From the NCBI GenBank assembly GCA_016871175.1, contig VFZL01000038.1, positions 1-39,771 on the forward strand: DNA of 39,771 bases. The letters are read 5' to 3'. Each line of letters opens with the position of its first letter. Position 1 is the stretch's first letter. The position numbers and the translations under genes were made by a program. The notes beneath the pieces are model-generated. The model searched no databases. It was given only the letters and a program-made list of their open reading frames with translations, and was not told the origin of the DNA. Origin of the DNA: Acidimicrobiia bacterium (GTDB lineage Bacteria; Acidobacteriota; Vicinamibacteria; Vicinamibacterales; CAVVIG01). Positions 17,294-39,771 of this stretch are shown here, piece after piece.

Positions 17294-17358
17294 GAAATCA
17301 GCGAGTTAGGTTAGAAGACTGGAAAAAAATCCAGGGGCAAGGGGACCGGACTATTTCG

Positions 17359-17387
17359 TTGACCTAGGGGATGAATGCGCCTAGAAT
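17359..17387 (+). promoter_or_regulatory. Strong sigma-70 type promoter of rpsU
   Basis: TTGACC (17359-17364, 5/6) and TAGAAT (17382-17387, 5/6) are separated by exactly 17 bases, so a start near 17394 is expected. That gives an rpsU leader of about 80 nt. It is the best promoter match in the window after the rRNA promoter. Confidence 0.7.
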
Positions 17388-17418
17388 CCGCTCGGCTTCG
17401 TGCTAGCCTAACATATTT

Positions 17419-17438
17419 GGTCACTTGCCAATGTGACC
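17419..17438 (+). promoter_or_regulatory. Leader hairpin of rpsU
   Basis: Perfect arms GGTCAC and GTGACC surround an 8-nt loop in the middle of the predicted rpsU leader. It may be a protein-binding or folding element. It has no T-run, so it is not an ordinary terminator. Confidence 0.4.
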
Positions 17439-17449
17439 CCGATCCGAGC

Positions 17450-17466
17450 CACCCGTGAAAGGGGTG
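17450..17466 (+). promoter_or_regulatory. Hairpin covering the rpsU ribosome binding site
   Basis: CACCC (17450-17454) can pair with GGGTG (17462-17466), which is part of the likely Shine-Dalgarno region AAAGGGGTG, 9 bases before the GTG start. Pairing would mask the site and could allow feedback control of S21 synthesis. The pairing is visible; the regulatory role is inference. Confidence 0.4.
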
Positions 17467-17475
17467 TGATGATTC

Positions 17476-17673
17476 GTGGCTGAAGTGAAGATCCAGGAGG
17501 GTGAATCGATTGAGAGCGCCCTTCGCCGGTTCAAGCGGAAGGTTCAACAGGAAGACATCATCAAGGATATTAAGAAGCATTCCTTCTACTTGAAGCCGGG
17601 CGACAAACGCCGAGCCAAACAGGCTTTGGCACGCAAACGCAATCGGAAGAAGCTCCGACGCGAGCTCGAGTAA
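17476..17673 (+). CDS. rpsU: Small ribosomal subunit protein bS21
   Basis: This 65-residue basic protein of the 30S subunit helps mRNA binding near the anti-Shine-Dalgarno end of 16S. The sequence matches bS21: EGESIESALRRFKRKVQQEDI at the N-terminal half and a Lys/Arg-rich tail RRAKQALARKRNRKKLRRELE. It starts with GTG, preceded by the AAAGGGGTG ribosome binding region. It is the first gene after the promoter at 17359-17387 and is followed 55 bases later by a zinc-ribbon gene. Confidence 0.97.
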   Translation: MAEVKIQEGESIESALRRFKRKVQQEDIIKDIKKHSFYLKPGDKRRAKQALARKRNRKKLRRELE

Positions 17674-17728
17674 CGAGTTCGCACAGGAATAGCCGGATCG
17701 AAGACCGACCCCGACGAGGTAGCGACCG

Positions 17729-18043
17729 ATGGAGTTCCAGGACAGGACCCTCAGGTGCGTGGACTGCGGTGCGGAATTCGTTTGGGCGGCGGGCGAGCAG
17801 CAGTTCTTCGCCGACAAGAACTTCAAGAACGAGCCAAAGCGTTGCAAGGGTTGTAAGGTCAAGCGGGCCAGTCGGCCGGCAGGTCCGATCAGTCCGGTGG
17901 CTCGGGAACGTGTCGAGACGGTGACCAGCTGTTCGGCCTGCGGCAGGGAAACCACCGTGCCTTTCCGGCCGACCCAGGGTCGTCCCGTCTTCTGCAGAGA
18001 GTGCTTCCAGTCCCGGAAGTTTGCCGGGGCTGGCGGCCTGTAG
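17729..18043 (+). CDS. Double zinc-ribbon protein of unknown function
   Basis: The 104-residue product carries four CxxC pairs. CVDC and CKGC form one ribbon (about residues 10-48), and CSAC and CREC form a second (about 67-95). The pattern, with FFADKNFKNEPKRCKGCK and VPFRPTQGRPVFCRECF, resembles the small CxxC-x(n)-CxxC zinc-binding proteins common in environmental bacteria, whose role is unknown; nucleic-acid or protein binding is plausible. GAGGT lies about 8 bases before the ATG. It follows rpsU by 55 bases on the same strand and probably shares its transcript. Confidence 0.8.
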   Translation: MEFQDRTLRCVDCGAEFVWAAGEQQFFADKNFKNEPKRCKGCKVKRASRPAGPISPVARERVETVTSCSACGRETTVPFRPTQGRPVFCRECFQSRKFAGAGGL

Positions 18044-18154
18044 CCTCCAGCGGTTCTCCTCAGATGAACATGGACCCCCGCGCGGAGCCCCAGCCCGGCG
18101 CCGCGTGTGGGGTGTGCTAAGCTCACCCGACGCGCGAAAAAGTGGAGCTTGTTC

Positions 18155-18508
18155 ATGCACATCGAAGAACGAGCTGTCGGCGACGTGACAGTGCTCGACC
18201 TCAAGGGTCGGGTCACTCTCGGCGAAGGCGATGAGCTCCTGAAAGACAAAATAAACAGTCTTATCAATCAAGGGCGGCGCAAGCTCGTGCTGAACCTGGC
18301 TGAGGTGCCGTACGTCGACTCGGCTGGTCTGGGCGAAATCGTTCGCACCTATACGACCGTCAGCCGCCAGGGAGGTAGTCTGAAACTGCTCGGCTTGACC
18401 AAGCGGATCCAGGATCTGCTCTCCATCACGAAACTCCTAACGGTATTCGAGCACTTCGAGTCGGAGCAGGAAGCCGTCAAGAGCTTCTCCGCATCGGCGA
18501 AGGTCTAG
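18155..18508 (+). CDS. STAS-domain anti-sigma-factor antagonist
   Basis: This 117-residue single-domain protein is of the SpoIIAA/RsbV type. Such proteins bind an anti-sigma factor kinase and are switched by phosphorylation of a serine. The signature VPYVDSAGLGEIVRTY is present, with Ser56 in DSAGL as the expected phospho-site. The ATG at 18155 was chosen because it starts the domain (MHIEER) and GTGGAG lies about 7 bases upstream; an in-frame extension to 18107 has no family match. No partner kinase or sigma factor gene is seen nearby, so its circuit is not known. Confidence 0.9.
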   Translation: MHIEERAVGDVTVLDLKGRVTLGEGDELLKDKINSLINQGRRKLVLNLAEVPYVDSAGLGEIVRTYTTVSRQGGSLKLLGLTKRIQDLLSITKLLTVFEHFESEQEAVKSFSASAKV

Positions 18509-18534
18509 TGTCCGCCTAGCGCCCACAGCACCCG

Positions 18535-18565
18535 CGCGAGCCGACTTCCGCAACGTCGGCTCGCG
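18535..18565 (+). promoter_or_regulatory. Strong 11-bp hairpin before the glycosyltransferase operon
   Basis: CGCGAGCCGAC (18535-18545) and GTCGGCTCGCG (18555-18565) are perfect 11-bp arms around a 9-nt loop, set between the STAS stop and the next ATG (14 bases after the hairpin). No T-run follows on either strand. It could end or stabilise the STAS transcript, or limit entry into the operon. Confidence 0.5.
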
Positions 18566-18578
18566 GCCAACCCAAGCG

Positions 18579-19580
18579 ATGTCTGATTTCACCGTGCGTG
18601 CCGATTCGGTCAATGTCGAACAGATCATGGACCAGATCCGCGCTCGTATCCGCGAGAAGCGCGGTGTCGACTACACGGAACAACAGATCCGCGAGATGGC
18701 GACGGCCAAGCTCAAGAAGTTCCTGGATCCGCGCGGCGTGCGGTCAGATCTGCTCGAGCGGTTTCGCAGCGCGCAGCCGATCTACACGCCGCCCGAGTTG
18801 CCGAACTACGCGTTCGAGGAACAGACACTCTTCGATTCGCATCGTGGCCCACTCCGGGCGATCCGTCGGCTGCTGCGGCCCATCCTGAAGTTATTCTTCA
18901 ATCCTGGTCCGCTGATTCAGGCACTGAACATCCAGTCTCGACTCAATACGCTCCAGGCCGAGCGTGAGGCGCGCCGCGAGGCCGCGCGTCACGGCATGGA
19001 GCAGCTGTACTACGAGGTGATGCACAACTTGGTCGTCGAGACCACCCGCATGGCCATCGAGGTGAAGAACCTCAAGATGAAGGTGGAGTCGCTCACAAGC
19101 CGGCTGGAGTTCAATGAGCGCCGCGCGCGGGCTCTCGAAAGCGTCGTCGTGTACAAGCCGAGCGAGGCAGGGGCAGCCACCGATGTGGCGCCGCAGTTTA
19201 CTGAGCTGCTCCGGTCCAGCGAAGCGGGCACAACCTCACCAACCCCCGCCGGATCGGGCACCAGCGCTGGTGCTCCCGAAGGCCCGGGCCAACGCAGTCG
19301 TCGGCGTCGACGGCGTCGAGGACGGCGAGCCGGTGGACCGGCCGCCGCGCTGATGGCCGGCGCCACGGGAATGACGAGCGGCGGCGGGACCAGTACCGGG
19401 GACACGCAGGGGGGTCCAGGCGCAGACGCGGACGATGGTGGTGCAGATGACGACGGTCCGGACACCGAAGGCGCCGCGAACGAGGCGACCCACGCGGAAA
19501 CACCTGGGGCCGAACCAATCACACCCGCGGACGAAGGCTCGCCCACGGTCGACCGTGGACCGGATCCCGATAGGCAGTGA
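18579..19580 (+). CDS. Unrecognised coiled-coil protein with Arg-rich disordered tail
   Basis: I cannot name this 333-residue protein. Residues 11-50 (VNVEQIMDQIRARIREKRG...) form charged helices of a kind I recall at the N-termini of proteins in bacterial polysaccharide clusters. Residues 90-115 (AIRRLLRPILKLFFNPG) are amphipathic or hydrophobic and might touch a membrane. Residues 115-190 are a long helix with coiled-coil character. From about 195 the chain is low-complexity (Ser/Thr/Gly/Pro), contains an Arg cluster at 239-250 (RSRRRRRRRGRR), and ends in an acidic Gly/Asp/Glu/Thr tail. Its stop overlaps the next start (GTGA), so it is the first gene of the glycosyltransferase unit. It could be a scaffold or chain-length/assembly factor; that is inference. 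Confidence 0.75.
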   Translation: MSDFTVRADSVNVEQIMDQIRARIREKRGVDYTEQQIREMATAKLKKFLDPRGVRSDLLERFRSAQPIYTPPELPNYAFEEQTLFDSHRGPLRAIRRLLRPILKLFFNPGPLIQALNIQSRLNTLQAEREARREAARHGMEQLYYEVMHNLVVETTRMAIEVKNLKMKVESLTSRLEFNERRARALESVVVYKPSEAGAATDVAPQFTELLRSSEAGTTSPTPAGSGTSAGAPEGPGQRSRRRRRRRGRRAGGPAAALMAGATGMTSGGGTSTGDTQGGPGADADDGGADDDGPDTEGAANEATHAETPGAEPITPADEGSPTVDRGPDPDRQ

Positions 19581-21088
19581 AGCTCGCGATCGTCGTTCAA
19601 CGCTACGGCGAATCGATCAACGGCGGCGCGGAACTGCATGCGCGTTACGTCGCCGAGCGATTGGCGCGCCACGCCACTGTCGAGGTCCTGACCACCTGTG
19701 CCCGTGACTACGTCACGTGGAAGAACGAGCTGCCAACCGGAGTCGAGACCGTCAACGGCGTTCAGGTCCGGCGGTTTCCGGTCCGACGCGAACGCGACCC
19801 CCTCATGTTCGGACGCCTGTCCGAGGCGGTTTTCCGGCGCCAGCATTCGGTAGACGACGAGCTTCGCTGGCTGGAATCGGAAGGGCCCGATAGCCCGGGG
19901 CTCATCTCGTACTTGTCCAAGCACGCCTCTGAATTCGACTACTGCATCATCTTCAGTTACCGGTATCACCATGCCTATCACGCCGTCCGTGCGGTTCCGA
20001 ACAAGGCGATTCTGGTACCCACCGCGGAGCGCGATCCGGCTGTGGGGTTACGGATCTTTGGTCCGATTTTCCGAGGCGTGCGGGCCCTGATGTACAACTC
20101 GCCCGAAGAGCGGGCCATGATTCAGGCGGTGTCGCAGAATGACGCTGTGCCCTCGGTCGTGGTCGGCGTCGGTTCGGAGATTCCGGCGAACCCGCAACCT
20201 CAACGGTTCCGGCACAAGTTCAACGTCCGCGGACCGTTCGCGATCTACGTCGGTCGCATCGATGAGAACAAGGGCTGCAAGGAGCTCTTCGATTTCTTCG
20301 GCACCTACCTCGACGAAGGTCGAGGGCGATTGTCGCTCGTGTTGATCGGCAACGCGATCCTGCCGGTGCCGCCGCATCCACGCATTCGGCACTTGGGCTT
20401 TCTCGAGGATGCGGACAAGTTCGACGCGATTGCGGCGGCGGACCTGCTCGTCATGCCGTCGTACTTCGAGAGTCTGTCCATGGTGGCACTCGAAGCGTGG
20501 GCGCTCGGTCGGCCGGTTGTGGCCAACGGTCGATGTGACGTGCTGCGCGGCCAATGCGTACGCAGCCACGCGGGGCTGTACTACGAGAACCGTCAGGAGT
20601 TCGTCGAGACGCTGCGAGCGCTGGAGCGAACGCGATGGCTCAACGTGACGCTTGGGCGCAACGGGCGAGAGTTCTACAAGGACCAGTACGATTGGCCCGT
20701 GATCGAGAGGAAGTACCTCGACGTGATCGGTCGCTTGAGCGGGAGCTCTGGGGCCGACATCGAACCCCTTCCGGGTTGGTTTGACCGTCTACGCCCCGAA
20801 TGTCCGGCGTCGGCCGACGTCGTCGCTGCGCTGCCAGCCGGTCCCGTCGTGGCGCAGGAGATGGGGCGGGAGCCGTACGTCACGCCGCCCACGCCCCCAC
20901 CAAGACGGATCCCGGAGGGCACCCGGCCTCGACCCGTCCACCAATCGCACGGCAACCGCCCAGCGCCTCAGGCGCCGGCCTCCAGCGCCGACCGCGGTGG
21001 TAGGCAGGGGCCGCCGCGATCGTTCCACAGCCGGCGCGGGCCGCACCGCGGGCGACCTCGAGGCGGCAGCCCACGGAGCGGCGCATGA
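19577..21088 (+). CDS. GT4-type glycosyltransferase with Arg/Gly/Pro-rich tail (copy A)
   Basis: This GT-B fold retaining glycosyltransferase probably adds a sugar from a nucleotide-sugar donor at the cytoplasmic side. The N-terminus has the glycine-rich acceptor loop (VVQRYGESINGGAELHA). The donor domain has FAIYVGRIDENKGCKELFDFF and the E-x7-E motif in ESLSMVALE. About residues 425-503 are an added tail rich in Arg, Pro, Gly and Ser that is probably disordered. It starts with GTG overlapping the previous stop, and its stop overlaps the next ATG. It is a paralogue of the gene at 23459, sharing VEVLTTCARDYVTWKNE. Donor and acceptor cannot be told. Confidence 0.88.
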   Translation: MKLAIVVQRYGESINGGAELHARYVAERLARHATVEVLTTCARDYVTWKNELPTGVETVNGVQVRRFPVRRERDPLMFGRLSEAVFRRQHSVDDELRWLESEGPDSPGLISYLSKHASEFDYCIIFSYRYHHAYHAVRAVPNKAILVPTAERDPAVGLRIFGPIFRGVRALMYNSPEERAMIQAVSQNDAVPSVVVGVGSEIPANPQPQRFRHKFNVRGPFAIYVGRIDENKGCKELFDFFGTYLDEGRGRLSLVLIGNAILPVPPHPRIRHLGFLEDADKFDAIAAADLLVMPSYFESLSMVALEAWALGRPVVANGRCDVLRGQCVRSHAGLYYENRQEFVETLRALERTRWLNVTLGRNGREFYKDQYDWPVIERKYLDVIGRLSGSSGADIEPLPGWFDRLRPECPASADVVAALPAGPVVAQEMGREPYVTPPTPPPRRIPEGTRPRPVHQSHGNRPAPQAPASSADRGGRQGPPRSFHSRRGPHRGRPRGGSPRSGA

Positions 21089-22341
21089 GCGTGGCCGGCC
21101 AACGGCCAGCCGTGCATCAAGTATTGGCGACGCTCGGCTACGGTGACGCGATCGGCCACGAGGTCCTGGGGATTCAGCGTGTGCTGCGCACGGCGGGTCT
21201 CGAGTCAGATATCTTTGTGGAGACTGCGGATCGTCGTCTCGAGCCGCTGACGCGCGACTACCGCGAGCTGGTCGACGCCAGTCATCCGGACAATCTACTG
21301 CTCCACCACTTTTCGATCGGCTCCAAGGCGTCGCGAACAGCGTACGCGTTGCCCGAACGGATGGCTCTCATCTATCACAACATCACGCCTCCGGAATACT
21401 TCGTCGGCGTGCACCGCACGCTCGCGCGCCAGTGCTTTCGCGGGCGGCGAGAGCTGCGTGCATATGTCGACCGGTGCGAACTGGCGCTCGGCGATTCGGA
21501 ATTCAATCGGCAAGACCTCGAGATGCTCGGCTTCCCTCGGACCGAAGTCCTGCCGGTCGTTCCGGACCTTTCGAGGCTCGACCTTCCGCCGAATCCATTC
21601 GTGGCGCATCAATTCGACGACGACTGGACGAACATCCTGTTCGTCGGTCGGGTCATCGCCAACAAGAAGGTCGAGGATGCGATCCGCGCGTTCCACGCGT
21701 ACCACACGCTGATCAACCCTCGGTCACGGCTGCTCATCGTCGGCATCTTCAGCCTGTTTGAGCGGTATCTCGCGTCGCTCAACCACCTCGTCGCCGAGCT
21801 CGACCTGCATCACGTGCACTTCACGGGGCACGTAACCGATGAGGAGCTCGTTGCGTACTACGAGATCGCCGATCTCTTTCTCTGCCAGAGCGAGCACGAA
21901 GGCTTCTGCGTGCCTCTGGTCGAGGCGTTTTACATGAGGGTGCCCGTTCTCGCCTACGCGGCAACCGCCGTTCCTGACACGATGGATGGCGGGGGCGTGC
22001 TCTTCCACGACAAGGATCCGATGTACGTCGCGTCGCTGATGGACGCGATCCTGTCAGACGAGGCGCTCACCGACGCGATTCTCGAGCGGCAGGACGCGGC
22101 CGTCGAACGGCTCCGGAGGAAGGACTTCGAGGGCACATTACTCCGCTTCGTCGATCGCATGCTGAAGAGTCCACGGACGGGACGTGGCCGCGTGGCGTTC
22201 GACTTCTGGGAACAGTTCGACGATGGCGAACGGCTCGAGGCACTGCGATTGTATCGACCGTCCCTGTACAAGGCCCTCCCGTTTCCCGCGGAGGCCGACG
22301 GCGACACCGACCCCAGGCGTGCGGCCGGAGTGCGATCGTGA
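21085..22341 (+). CDS. GT4-type glycosyltransferase (copy B)
   Basis: This 418-residue GT-B fold glycosyltransferase has the donor-domain strand WTNILFVGRVIANKKVEDAIRAFH, a GHVTDEELVAYY segment and the E-x7-E motif EGFCVPLVE, followed by VLAYAATAVPDTMDGGGV. The N-terminal half has the acceptor-domain features LLHHFSIGSKASR and YHNITPPEYF. Both ends overlap neighbours by four bases (ATGA and GTGA). It is a close paralogue of the next gene, which has the same YHN-TP, LFVGR, NKKIED and SEHEGFC motifs. It probably adds one sugar in the chain built by this operon. Confidence 0.9.
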   Translation: MSVAGQRPAVHQVLATLGYGDAIGHEVLGIQRVLRTAGLESDIFVETADRRLEPLTRDYRELVDASHPDNLLLHHFSIGSKASRTAYALPERMALIYHNITPPEYFVGVHRTLARQCFRGRRELRAYVDRCELALGDSEFNRQDLEMLGFPRTEVLPVVPDLSRLDLPPNPFVAHQFDDDWTNILFVGRVIANKKVEDAIRAFHAYHTLINPRSRLLIVGIFSLFERYLASLNHLVAELDLHHVHFTGHVTDEELVAYYEIADLFLCQSEHEGFCVPLVEAFYMRVPVLAYAATAVPDTMDGGGVLFHDKDPMYVASLMDAILSDEALTDAILERQDAAVERLRRKDFEGTLLRFVDRMLKSPRTGRGRVAFDFWEQFDDGERLEALRLYRPSLYKALPFPAEADGDTDPRRAAGVRS

Positions 22342-23462
22342 TCGTCAACCAGTGGGTCCCGGCGGCGCACCGGGGCGATGCGATCGGTGACAGCGCACGA
22401 CGGATGCGTTCAATCTGGCGCGAGCTGGGGCATGCGTCGGAGATCTATGCGCTCACGATCGACGACGACCTCGAGGGCGACGCCCGTCCCTTCTCCGATC
22501 CGGGGGCCTCGACGGGTGACATCACCCTGTTCCACTACGCGTTGCCGTCAGCGATGACGGAAGCCTTCGCGCGGCTGCGCCGGGGCGGGCGCGTCTTGCA
22601 GTATCACAACGTGACGCCAGCCGCGTTCTTTGCTCCGTATGATCCCGCGCTGTTCCGTCTCGCGTCGCTGGCTCGCGCCGAGCTTGCCACCCTCGTCGGG
22701 CGGGTCGATCTGGCCCTTGGCGTCTCGAACTACAACCGCGAGGAACTGGAGGCGCTCGGCTTTTCGCCCACCGGCGTGCTGCCCCTGGCCGTCGACACGG
22801 GCCGTGTGACGCGCGCGTCGGCAAGTCCCGCCATCGACAAGATGCTGGACGATGAGTTCGTGAACTTCCTGTTCGTCGGTCGCGTCGCGCCGAACAAGAA
22901 AATCGAGGATTACATCCGGCTGGCTGAACACTACAAGCGCTACGTCGACGCGTTCTATCGATTCATCTTCGTCGGGCGGTATGACGTGGTGCCGCGGTAT
23001 TATGCGATGGTTCGTGCGCTCATGACCGACTATCGCCTGCTCCACGAGCGGTTCATCTTCACCGGCCCGGCGTCAGACGAGGAGCTCGCGTCGTACTACA
23101 GGCACGCAGCCGTGTACATCTCGCTCAGCGAGCATGAAGGCTTCTGTGCACCGTTGCTCGAGGCGATGGCCGTGGACCTGCCGGTTCTCGCGTACGCGGC
23201 CGCGGCCGTGCCGGAGACGCTCGGCGGGGCCGGTGTGCAGTTTGCGCCCAAGGATCTCGAACAGGCCGCGGAGCTCCTGGGCGTGCTCGCCTTCGATGAA
23301 GGCGTCAGGCAATCGGTCATCGCGGGCCAGCGACGCCGTCGGCAAGACTTCGCCGAGGAGCATCTCGTGCAGGATTTGGCGGCGCTGGTGGGCTACACAG
23401 GTGGATCGTTCACGCCACGGACGGGACGAGCGACAGCGGCCTCGGACTACCCACCGGCATGA
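22338..23462 (+). CDS. GT4-type glycosyltransferase (copy B')
   Basis: The 374-residue product starts with GTG (IVNQWVPAAHRGDAIGDSARRMRSIW) and is a paralogue of the gene before it: LFHYALPSAMTEAF, QYHNVTPAAFFAPYDP, NFLFVGRVAPNKKIEDYIRLAEHYKRY, GPASDEELASYY and SEHEGFCAPLLEA (E-x7-E) occur in the same order. The GDAIGD segment matches the acceptor-side loop GDAIGHEVLG of copy B. It overlaps both neighbours by four bases. Sugar specificity is unknown. Confidence 0.9.
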   Translation: MIVNQWVPAAHRGDAIGDSARRMRSIWRELGHASEIYALTIDDDLEGDARPFSDPGASTGDITLFHYALPSAMTEAFARLRRGGRVLQYHNVTPAAFFAPYDPALFRLASLARAELATLVGRVDLALGVSNYNREELEALGFSPTGVLPLAVDTGRVTRASASPAIDKMLDDEFVNFLFVGRVAPNKKIEDYIRLAEHYKRYVDAFYRFIFVGRYDVVPRYYAMVRALMTDYRLLHERFIFTGPASDEELASYYRHAAVYISLSEHEGFCAPLLEAMAVDLPVLAYAAAAVPETLGGAGVQFAPKDLEQAAELLGVLAFDEGVRQSVIAGQRRRRQDFAEEHLVQDLAALVGYTGGSFTPRTGRATAASDYPPA

Positions 23463-24757
23463 AGATCGGCATCGTCATACAGCGGTATGGGGCCGAGGTC
23501 CTTGGCGGCTCGGAGCAGCTGTGCCGGCTCCTGGCGGAACGGCTCTGCACGCATCACGACGTCGAAGTCCTGACGACGTGCGCGCGCGACTACGTGACCT
23601 GGAAGAACGAGTATCCGGAGGGCTCAGACCGCATCCGCGGGGTCACGGTCCGACGTTTCGGGAACGCGAGGATCCGTGACCTGGAGGCGTTCAACCGGTA
23701 TTCCGACTGGATCTACCACAATCCGCACACACGCACGGACGAGATCGAGTGGTTGAAGCTACAGGGTCCGTGGTGCCCGGCGCTCATCGAGCACCTCCGC
23801 AAGCACCACCAACAGTTCGACGTGCTGATGTTCTTCACCTACCTCTATGCACCCACGGTGATGGGTCTGGACGTGTGTCCAGGCAAGAGCATCCTCGTGT
23901 CGACGGCGCATGATGAGCCGGCGATTACGCTCGAGGTGTTCAAGGACGTCTTCAGTCGGCCGGCGGCGATCTGTTACCTCACCAACAGCGAGCGCGAGTT
24001 CGTCCAGGAACGGTTTGTCGACCGGCCGTTACTCGAGGACGTGATCGGCGTCGGCATCGATCTGCCGCAGCAACAATACTATCCGCGGATGCCGCCGGCG
24101 CCGGACGAGACCGGTGACGGATCGATCGAGCCGGTCGACCACCGCACGTTGCTGCCAGGCGACGCGGAGCCTCCGGCGCACGTGCCCCCGCATCTCCTCA
24201 CCCGTGGGTCGGTCTTCCGCAGGCGTCATCGGTTGTACGGGCCAGTGATGCTTTATGGCGGCCGCATCGACCCCGGTAAGGGATGTGAGGAGCTGCTGCA
24301 GTACTTCAGTGAGTACGTCAGGGAAGGCGGCGAAGGCACGCTGGCGTTGATGGGGGCGAAAATGATGCCGCTCCCAACCGAGCCGTACGTGCGGTTCGCC
24401 GGACTTCTCTCGGAGCGGGAACGCGTCCAGGCTCTCGAAGCCGCGACGGCGGTGGCGTGCCCTTCACCCTACGAGAGTCTGTCGCTTTTCGCGCTCGAGG
24501 CGATGTCGGTCGGCACGCCGGTCTTGGCCAACGCCCGTAGCGCGGTCTTGGTCGAGCATTGCACCAACAGCAACGCGGGCCTGTGGTACGCGAATCGCGA
24601 TGAGTTCGTCGAGTGTCTGAAGCTGCTGGTGAAGGATGCCCGCTTGCGGGAGGCGCTCGGACGAAACGGTCGCGAGTACGTCAAGCGCCACTACCGCTGG
24701 GACGTCGTGCTCGGCAAGTACGAGCACCTGTTCGCGAAGGTCCGCAACGGTCGCTGA
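23459..24757 (+). CDS. GT4-type glycosyltransferase (copy A')
   Basis: This 432-residue GT-B fold glycosyltransferase is paralogous to the gene at 19577. The N-terminus reads IVIQRYGAEVLGGSEQL, then VEVLTTCARDYVTWKNEYPEG. The donor domain contains VMLYGGRIDPGKGCEELLQYF and the E-x7-E motif ESLSLFALE. It lacks the Arg-rich tail of copy A but has an insertion (about residues 205-260) rich in Pro, Asp and Arg between its two domains. It is the last gene of the unit, ending 20 bases from the convergent response-regulator gene. Confidence 0.9.
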   Translation: MKIGIVIQRYGAEVLGGSEQLCRLLAERLCTHHDVEVLTTCARDYVTWKNEYPEGSDRIRGVTVRRFGNARIRDLEAFNRYSDWIYHNPHTRTDEIEWLKLQGPWCPALIEHLRKHHQQFDVLMFFTYLYAPTVMGLDVCPGKSILVSTAHDEPAITLEVFKDVFSRPAAICYLTNSEREFVQERFVDRPLLEDVIGVGIDLPQQQYYPRMPPAPDETGDGSIEPVDHRTLLPGDAEPPAHVPPHLLTRGSVFRRRHRLYGPVMLYGGRIDPGKGCEELLQYFSEYVREGGEGTLALMGAKMMPLPTEPYVRFAGLLSERERVQALEAATAVACPSPYESLSLFALEAMSVGTPVLANARSAVLVEHCTNSNAGLWYANRDEFVECLKLLVKDARLREALGRNGREYVKRHYRWDVVLGKYEHLFAKVRNGR

Positions 24758-38123: not shown

Positions 38124-39093
38124 ATGCTCGACGTCGAACACCTGACCACCATCTTCGATCTGCCGTCGGGTCCCGTGCCAGCCGTGAACGACGTGAGCTT
38201 CATCGTCGGGCCTGGCGAGACACTGGGGCTGGTCGGAGAATCGGGCTGCGGCAAGTCGGTGACCGCGCTGTCGATCCTGCGGTTGGTCCAGCCGCCCGGG
38301 CACATTGCTGCCGGCCAGATCCGATTCAAGGGACGCGACCTGCTCTCGCTTCCAGAAGTCGAGATGCGCAGGGTTCGAGGCGCCCAGATCGCGCTGATCT
38401 TCCAAGAACCCTCGACCGCGCTCAATCCCGTGTTCACCATCGGCGCTCAGATCGCCGAAGCCCTGCTCGTGCACGGGAAGGCCACGAAGGCTGAATCGGG
38501 CGGTCGAGCTCTTGGAATCCGTGCACATGCCAGACGCCGCAGCTCGCGTGCGGTCCTACCCCCGTCAGCTCTCGGGTGGGCAACGCCAACGCGTGCTCAT
38601 CGCCATGGCGCTCGCGTGTCGGCCCTCGCTCATCATCGCGGACGAGCCGACCACGGCGCTGGACGTCACGATCCAGGCACAAATCCTCGATCTTCTGCGC
38701 GAGATGCGCTCCTCGCTGCAGCTCTCGCTCCTGCTCATCACGCACGACCTCGGGGTGATCGCGGAGATCGCCGACCGCGTGGCCGTCATGTACGCCGGTC
38801 GAATCGTCGAACACGGTCCTGTTCGTGAGGTGCTCCGTCGGCCGCAGCACCCGTATACGCGCGGTCTGCTGGCGTCGATGCCGGGTCGCTCCAAGGGACG
38901 GCTTCGTGCGATTGACGGTTCCGTTCCGTCGCTCGGGGCGTTGCCGAGGGGGTGTGCGTTCCATCCACGCTGCCCCGATCGATTCGGGCCGTGCGCCACG
39001 AGCGTGCCGGAGGACTTCACCGTTGGCTCCGCACACGGCGTCCGCTGTCATCTGTACGCCAAGCTGCCGGGCGACGTCCATGCCGCTCGTTGA
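38124..39093 (+). pseudogene. Oligopeptide ABC transporter ATPase (DppD/OppD type), frameshifted
   Basis: The two halves of this ATPase lie in different frames. From ATG 38124 the first reads [25 protein letters not shown] (Walker A) and [11 protein letters not shown] (Q-loop) up to HGKATKAE. After about 38496 the frame shifts, and the second half gives [26 protein letters not shown] (signature), [12 protein letters not shown] (Walker B), LLITHDLG and the C-terminal oligopeptide-transporter motif [14 protein letters not shown]. Joined, they give about 322 residues, the normal length. The shift equals one extra base (T38496) or two missing bases and falls between Q-loop and signature. It may be a true mutation or a sequence error. 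It overlaps the next gene by 14 bases. Confidence 0.8.
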
Positions 39094-39644
39094 AGTCGAA
39101 CACATGGTCAAGCAGTTCGTGAGCGGAGGCGGGCTCCTGCGCCGAGGGCACACGATCACCGCAGTCGACGACGTCAGCTTCACAATCGAACTGGGAGAAA
39201 CCTTCGGGCTGGTCGGCGAATCAGGCAGTGGGAAGACGACCACCGGACGCTGCGCGTTGCGGCTGATCGAACCGACGTCGGGGCGGGTCCGCTTCAAGGG
39301 AGACGACGTGCTGCAGTTCTCTACTCGGCGGCTGCGTGAGGCGCGGCGCCAGATGCAGATCGTTTTCCAGGATCCCTATTCATCGCTGAATCCGCGGATG
39401 CGCGCGCGTACGATCGTCGAGGAGCCGCTGGTCATTCACCGGATCGGCACGCGGGCGTCGCGCCGCGCGCGCGTCGCCGAGCTCTTCGCGCTCGTCGGGC
39501 TGGATCCCGCGCACATCGAGAGGTATCCGCACGAGTTCAGTGGCGGACAGCGCCAGCGCATTGGGCTCGCGCGCGCGCGCCAGCCATCGTTTCTGGTGCT
39601 CGACGAGCCCGTGTCCACCCTCGATCTGTCGATTCAGGCCCAGG
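39080..39644 (+). pseudogene. Oligopeptide ABC transporter ATPase (DppF/OppF type), cut by an insertion element
   Basis: From ATG 39080 the product reads as a DppF/OppF-type ATPase: [19 protein letters not shown] (Walker A), [14 protein letters not shown] (Q-loop), [17 protein letters not shown] (signature) and [19 protein letters not shown] (Walker B and D-loop). At 39645 the family sequence stops and insertion-element DNA begins. The frame then runs about 21 codons into the element to a TAA at 39707-39709. About 100 C-terminal residues, including the switch His region, are lost. Between signature and Walker B it reads LARARQPSF where the family has about two more residues, at a GCGC repeat. 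Confidence 0.85.
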
Positions 39645-39771
39645 TGACCTGCCCGGTTTCTTCGGACCAGTCGCTATTGGAGAACAGCGCCGGTACGGGC
39701 CTCCGTTAAACAGCCGCTCTTGATCTGCAGCTGGGCTTTGAACTCGGCGGGCGTCAGGTCGCCGAGGCTCA
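39645..39771. mobile_element. End of an IS3-family insertion element (cut by window edge)
   Basis: The homology to the ABC ATPase breaks at 39645, where TGACCTGCCCGGTTTCTTCG begins. That resembles the terminal repeat of many IS3-family elements. About 30 bases inside, a minus-strand reading frame ends that matches the transposase C-terminus. The other end and the target duplication lie outside the window. Confidence 0.75.
39674..39771 (-). CDS. IS3-family transposase, C-terminal end (partial)
   Basis: On the minus strand the visible C-terminus reads [19 protein letters not shown] and ends in TGAVLQ with a TAG stop at 39676-39674. The SLG-LTPAEF segment is the usual end of the rve integrase domain of IS3-family OrfB (after the RPHSSLG motif). 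The DDE catalytic part is outside the window. Confidence 0.75.

Follow-up and report, generated by a model that had tools for sequence, protein, structure and literature searches.

A family of predicted coiled-coil proteins is the near-constant partner of a four-glycosyltransferase operon in Acidobacteriota

The window, i.e. the whole stretch of 39,771 nt that was analysed, is an entire contig (G000:C38) of a 4.44-Mb draft genome, and its features are collected in Table 1. The candidate gene is an open reading frame (ORF) whose translation runs through 333 codons with no internal stop, as an earlier note made from the letters of this DNA had described, and it opens a five-gene unit in which all four junctions are 4-nt overlaps (GTGA, ATGA, GTGA and ATGA, in gene order), the stop codon of the candidate overlapping the GTG start of GTa. 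Glycos_transf_1 scored above its curated cutoff in all four of GTa, GTb, GTc and GTd, and the coupling to four glycosyltransferases (GTs) that the note had read from the GTGA overlap is confirmed. Neither a terminator gene nor an exporter gene lies within the five-gene unit; an ABC_tran gene was found 14 kb away, at 38825-39709, in the part of the window genes that was scanned. Genes for the STAS-domain protein and a sigma-54 regulator are close to the candidate, and no UbiA-family gene lies between STAS and candidate in the window (18509-18578), nor was one found in the own genome by a single-query search run without positive control. Between STAS gene and candidate, an 11-bp stem without mismatch closes a loop of 9 nt (18535-18565); no T run accompanies it, and its fold z-score is only -1.4. 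An ORF of 318 aa on the minus strand (17311-18267) was dropped as a likely antisense artefact; by eye, we take the genes opposite to it to encode a bS21-like ribosomal protein and a zinc-ribbon protein (17729-18043), ahead of the STAS gene.

Table 1. Coordinates of the operon genes, of the upstream neighbour and of the predicted segments of the candidate protein in the window
Feature	Position	Strand	Remark
Candidate gene ('TGT')	18579..19580	+	333 aa, operon gene 1
Head, residues 1-65	18579..18773	+	two to three short helices
Basic amphipathic helix, residues 90-107 (GPLRAIRRLLRPILKLFF)	18846..18899	+	predicted interfacial membrane binder
Continuous predicted helix, residues 109-189, 81 residues	18903..19145	+	heptad periodicity measured over 140-189
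Arg cluster, residues 238-249, low-complexity tail	19290..19325	+	typical of the window's order
GTa, GT4 glycosyltransferase	19577..21088	+	4-nt overlap with candidate
GTb, GT4 glycosyltransferase	21085..22341	+	Pfam Glycos_transf_1
GTc, GT4 glycosyltransferase	22338..23462	+	Pfam Glycos_transf_1
GTd, GT4 glycosyltransferase	23459..24757	+	Pfam Glycos_transf_1
STAS-domain protein	18107..18508	+	upstream neighbour in 38/40 order loci; outside the phylum-wide unit

In alignments, conservation of the candidate is confined to residues 1-195, and the tail (residues 196-333), of low complexity, varies between members. Across the family, a conserved head, whose motif in the candidate lies around VDVEQIMxQIRxRIREKRGVDYTE, is followed by a Pro-rich linker that varies and then by two further conserved parts, the basic amphipathic stretch and the helix, and the segment between amphipathic helix and conserved coil differs in length among lineages. 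AlphaFold2, supplied with 49 and then with 56 sequences, modelled the protein alone with mean pLDDT of 71 and 76 and pTM of 0.41 and 0.48. The second model predicts helices at residues 13-28, 34-48, 57-65, 90-98 and 100-106 and the continuous helix over 109-189; the latter is the best predicted part (block means of pLDDT 79-96) and the first 70 residues are the worst (46-76). Over residues 140-189 a period of 3.5 was the strongest among ten tested. Residues 90-107 carry a net charge of +5, with a hydrophobic moment that was reached by 1 of 500 shuffles of their own residues. A net charge of at least +2 is kept in this stretch by all 49 sequences from the order and all 36 distant ones, with mean charges of +4.1 and +5.2 and mean moments of 0.59 and 0.48, respectively, and low moments of 0.19-0.25 occur in three distant stretches (L130, L139 and L141). 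By the model, the moment and the periodicity, the N-terminal helices, amphipathic patch and long coiled-coil helix described in the note are present as predictions.

A transmembrane-like segment was not found in the window protein, in which the maximum 19-residue Kyte-Doolittle mean is 0.98, and 55 of 56 family members stay below 1.6 in this measure; signal peptides were assessed by eye. Pfam assigned no family to the candidate, and hence no GT, methyltransferase or kinase catalytic domain, while NCBIfam gave two matches far under cutoff, i.e. RNase E (E = 0.0033) and the coil of TIGR03007 (E = 0.0045), the latter covering the coil only, with 15.3 bits against a cutoff of 278.85. When 49 family members were scanned with Pfam, 35 families appeared at E up to 1, the best at E = 0.012 and none convincing, and in neither Pfam scan did a DNA- or RNA-binding domain score convincingly. 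A profile search of solved structures returned a prefoldin subunit at best (E = 0.16), then haemagglutinin and others, and Foldseek against the PDB gave no match at E ≤ 0.001 for either AlphaFold2 model. The statement that the protein has no enzyme motif therefore holds, and a confident match to a known unrelated family emerged from none of Pfam, NCBIfam, the structure profile search and Foldseek.

Searching with residues 1-195, we found relatives in 137 of 149 related genomes, own included; since they are so widely kept, the candidate is a real gene and not a chance ORF. Most of the 137 genomes have a single copy, the best-match identity ranges from 94% (same genus) down to 37% (G140), and the 12 genomes without match are 57-97% complete. 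Neighbourhoods were compared in 40 stretches from 39 of these 137 genomes (G063 twice). The common order is STAS, a UbiA-family gene, the candidate and GTa-GTd, often with a divergent sigma-54 response regulator and histidine kinase; STAS is found in 38, UbiA in 34 and an operon GT gene in 37 of the 40 loci, and the three loci without GT gene (L047, L063 and L071) are cut off by the contig end right behind the candidate. Two UbiA examples, L035 from the order and L113 from another class, score above the NCBIfam cutoff for decaprenyl-phosphate phosphoribosyltransferase. The operon is split in G063, where one locus has the candidate with GTd and the other a diverged copy (34% identical) with GTa (L058 and L059). 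A GTc match was not found in G063, G126 and G128 by a search that had no positive control. Three loci from one family of the order (L061, L062 and L064) encode an Arg-rich N-terminal extension, GRRGPDRR, and have GTa and GTd, with GTb and GTc not seen. The own genome contains a second, shorter relative of 160 aa (G000:C50, L159:5659-6141, minus strand; profile E = 7e-8), which lies directly upstream of another GT4 gene, and L104, L135 and L140 look like its counterparts in other genomes.

Linkage was also read from the other side, with GTa alone as the query. A scan of the species-genome collection confirmed 286 GTa loci, of which the best 80, mostly from Acidobacteriota and chiefly from Aminicenantes, were retained; four of the 80 have no upstream sequence, two of these with downstream GTs. 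Within these best 80 of 286, a family member lies directly upstream of GTa in 58 of 58 loci that have GTb, GTc or GTd downstream and usable upstream sequence (57 of them by direct calls and L223 through a read-through frame that contains the family; L187 is counted by its short head ORF only), and in 0 of the 17 GTa loci without downstream partner, which comprise 15 lone GTa copies and two rearranged GTc-GTd-like-GTa strings (L216 and L221). In L201 the family is present and the locus ends after GTa, and it was counted apart from the 58. The overlap between family gene and GTa is exactly 4 nt in 48 of 58 directly called loci, being ATGA in 33, GTGA in 14 and TTGA in one. Rearranged GTc-GTd-like-GTa strings without upstream family member number four in total (L150, L152, L216 and L221), and the genomes of L150 and L152 (G373 and G244) have a family copy ahead of GTb elsewhere (L122 and L119). 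A family member is likewise missing ahead of the GTa copies in L151, L153, L155 and L158, and in L154 the sequence before GTa is short.

Among the 59 family-bearing loci of the GTa scan, 41 lie outside the Vicinamibacteria-like set, which was divided by locus number from titles and kinship. These 41 have no STAS and no UbiA gene, and all have GT genes (GTa in 41, GTb in 40, GTc in 40 and GTd in 41, at loose thresholds that make cross-matches between GT4 families possible); because the loci were chosen for family presence, the contrast with STAS and UbiA is informative and the family's own 41 of 41 is not. UbiA is not strictly confined to that set, since it also neighbours the family in L109, L113, L156 and L157. 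In Aminicenantes, a separate ORF of ~70 aa that matches the head (profile positions up to 68) stands directly before the longer member; 33 such short head ORFs were found in 33 of the 80 GTa loci (L162-L208, mostly Aminicenantes), with L166 and L177 clipped by contig starts. Because of this separate ORF, the head seems to be a unit that can move on its own, and in Aminicenantes it would exist in a split or duplicated form. Two records titled Clostridiales and Chrysiogenales (L183 and L211) have GTa copies that resemble those of Aminicenantes, L183 with the whole operon, and they are perhaps mislabelled MAGs.

With the family profile as query, 69 of 297 phylum genomes had a match, which outside the order is mostly without the long tail. 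Candidate and GTa occur together in 65 of the 297, the candidate only in 4, GTa only in 8 and neither in 220 (Fisher p = 3e-51, not corrected for shared ancestry). Four of the eight GTa-only genomes have a divergent family member directly upstream when the profile includes distant members (L142-L145); as for the others, the contig of G401 starts 85 bases before GTa, and the three remaining matches are GTd-like. A family member is present in 39 of 40 distant stretches (L102-L141), next to an operon-family GT gene in 30 of the 39, many of them in the full candidate-GTa-GTb-GTc-GTd order with different flanks; copies adjoining a single GT gene exist as well. No ORF matched both the candidate and a GT profile at the thresholds applied, i.e. 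no natural fusion was found, and the long frames L055, L103 and L223, considered as fusions, were rejected as read-through or extended frames from their coordinates. A tblastn search of the plasmid collection with three queries (the N-terminus of the L136 methyltransferase, the window protein and the second relative from the own genome) gave no match.

The repeated linkage to GT4 genes that the note had named as support for a scaffold is thus seen in both directions, in 58 of 58 GTa-first loci (best 80 of 286) and in 30 of 39 distant candidate-first loci, and homologues do not lie mostly away from glycan genes. Together with the 4-nt overlap to GTa, it bears out the proposal of a pathway shared with the GTs: the candidate is a near-constant partner of the GTa-GTd operon, and there is good support for its having a role in the GT pathway.

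The strongest argument against a role confined to GTs comes from the nine of 39 distant copies that lie away from operon GT genes. One of them is a methyltransferase fusion (L136). Four (L107, L110, L117 and L132) form a paralogous branch by ~1000-aa proteins, with a PD40 beta-propeller in the two that were scanned (L107 and L110), and other non-GT neighbours are BatA/VWA (L108), SpoIIE (L111), BacA (L114) and an M16 peptidase (L115). Such copies would be expected if the family were a general envelope-organising coil of several systems, with the GT link as one use among several, and genome G208 fits this explanation: both of its copies were found away from GT genes, and its GTa has no copy upstream. 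Both G208 and the four GT strings in rearranged order count against the link being obligate. However, five of the eight unfused non-GT copies come from genomes (G213, G232, G149, G173 and G159) where another copy precedes a GT gene, and for this reason they look like diverged paralogues; the remaining ones are the two in G208 and one in G223. Weighed also against the unbroken presence of the family where GTa is followed by GTb, GTc or GTd with upstream sequence at hand (58 of 58, best 80 of 286), we consider a general coil unlikely.

A regulator or an accessory protein would likewise be compatible with membership of the operon taken alone. The tail of the window protein has an Arg cluster followed by an acidic C-terminus. 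Both elements had been described in the note and are present in the window protein, but the Arg patch turns out to be typical of the order: at a threshold of at least 8 Arg/Lys in 12, 45 of 49 order members keep it, and none of the 30 distant members has it after the coil. The four order members without it have tails of 27-31 residues, three lying at contig ends and one being a paralogue; among the distant members L106 reaches 6, and the tails of L109 and L112 look basic by eye. That the candidate is an RNA- or DNA-binding regulator of the operon would agree with the Arg cluster, with the very weak RNase E similarity (E = 0.0033) and with the nearby STAS and sigma-54 regulator genes. Yet the Arg patch does not reach the threshold in any of the 30 distant members, a STAS neighbour occurs in 2 of 39 distant candidate-first loci, DNA- and RNA-binding domains gave no convincing score, and the N-terminal half is common to methyltransferases; we regard this explanation as very improbable. 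The tail has also to be considered as a substrate, since the first gene of a GT4 operon with S and T in a low-complexity tail may encode an acceptor or primer that the GT4s glycosylate, e.g. on a Ser/Thr/Pro-rich tail. In the 30 distant members measured, however, the tail after the coil is 33 residues or shorter and the linkage persists, and the conserved part is helical and charged, with no transmembrane-like segment in the window protein, which makes an acceptor very improbable.

The N-terminal half of the family is, as judged from sequence comparisons, common to some methyltransferases of Acidobacteriota glycan clusters (e.g. L136, L244 and L257). The L136 protein (421 aa) matches the family profile (E = 4.5e-5) and carries Methyltransf_23; a methyltransferase of 379 aa beside a GT gene in L147 has a similar N-terminal motif (profile E = 0.0036), and a search with the latter matched 79 of 199 genomes. 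Nine of 30 methyltransferase N-termini match the family profile with E values, calculated for the set of 30, no higher than 4.2e-5, and at least 4 of these 30 loci have too little N-terminal sequence in this test. When the family N-terminal half, with the coil removed, was aligned by hhalign to 10 methyltransferase N-termini, the probability was 96-97 with E from 1.4e-9 to 3.7e-11, compared with 0.2 or below in column-reversed controls; eight of the ten had been picked for profile matches, which inflates the agreement, but not to the size of the gap from controls. The match spans head and amphipathic helix. A second group of 11 methyltransferases gave no match, with hhalign probabilities of 7-20.

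Methyltransferases that share this half could be terminators, and this brings in a further explanation, in which the candidate is a chain-length ruler or spacer whose coil sets the distance from the GT4s to a terminator encoded elsewhere, like the coil of WbdD. The predicted long helix and amphipathic helix agree with it, as does the WbdD precedent. But the five-gene unit of the window includes neither a terminator nor an exporter gene, the segment from amphipathic helix to coil varies in length between lineages, and some copies adjoin a single GT gene. We find a ruler rather improbable.

Taken together, the candidate is probably a coiled-coil protein without catalytic activity that forms oligomers, is peripheral to the cytoplasmic membrane and gathers the co-translated GT4s there into a complex that builds a lipid-linked glycan, and the specific scaffold or anchor mechanism is our best inference. 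In this mechanism, the basic amphipathic helix would lie in the surface of the inner leaflet, as its composition and conservation suggest, and the 81-residue helix is predicted to oligomerise and to project into the cytoplasm. The helical head, the coil or both may then bind the GT4 enzymes, with the 4-nt overlap presumably giving matched, co-localised synthesis, and the Arg/acidic tail might, speculatively, have been added in particular lineages for contacts through charge. A link to envelope chemistry with lipid-linked sugars is hinted at by the phosphoribosyltransferase of the order, by BacA (L114) and by sulfatase-type genes upstream in L124, L134 and L142, none of these being a constant partner. 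A wider reading, which we put forward as possible and somewhat short of an even chance, is that of a hitherto undescribed glycan-assembly complex, widespread in Acidobacteriota, in which a dedicated non-enzymatic scaffold assembles four GT4s on the membrane; the scaffold module would be fused elsewhere to a methyltransferase, so that WbdD-like scaffold and terminator functions would be separate, recombinable parts.

Membrane scaffolds for polysaccharide GTs have already been described in enzymes such as WbdD. If the scaffold reading is true, a stand-alone scaffold free of catalysis would offer a simple system for how peripheral glycosyltransferases are ordered on the membrane, and would point to a widespread glycan in the soil-abundant phylum Acidobacteriota. 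The analysis also supplies a profile for a gene without Pfam or NCBIfam assignment. No description of the operon or the family was found in searches of an open-licence paper library, and subscription papers could hold one.

Among known systems, the XrtA chain-length determinant of TIGR03007 and the Wzz-type co-polymerases resemble the candidate in having a long helix, reflected in the weak, coil-only match. Wzz-type co-polymerases carry two transmembrane segments, whereas the window protein has no transmembrane-like segment and does not reach the curated TIGR03007 score. Some of the methyltransferases described above have a homologous N-terminal module of head and amphipathic helix, but continue into a methyltransferase domain that the candidate does not have. 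WbdD, the O-antigen chain terminator and scaffold of E. coli O9a and K. pneumoniae O3/O5, is the nearest characterised analogue. This coiled-coil protein is termed a membrane-associated scaffold, and its coil keeps the catalytic sites apart from a region that contains an amphipathic helix and a site where the polymerase is recruited (PMC11231755); WbdD brings WbdA to the membrane (PMC3482155), its non-catalytic part being what recruits the polymerase (PMC3482155, PMC11231755), and it forms trimers (PMC5082667). The likeness claimed here is one of architecture, namely an extended coiled coil, in the candidate by prediction only; the conserved basic amphipathic stretch of the candidate may play the membrane-associated part that the amphipathic helix has in WbdD. 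Unlike WbdD, the candidate has no methyltransferase or kinase domain, and unlike the WbdD cluster its five-gene unit has no ABC exporter (wzm/wzt) gene; the order of parts also differs, being head, amphipathic helix, coil and tail in the candidate, whereas in WbdD the catalytic domains come first and the membrane region last. Since the catalytic part is missing, we do not class the candidate as a WbdD member, and suggest instead that it works like the non-catalytic part of WbdD.
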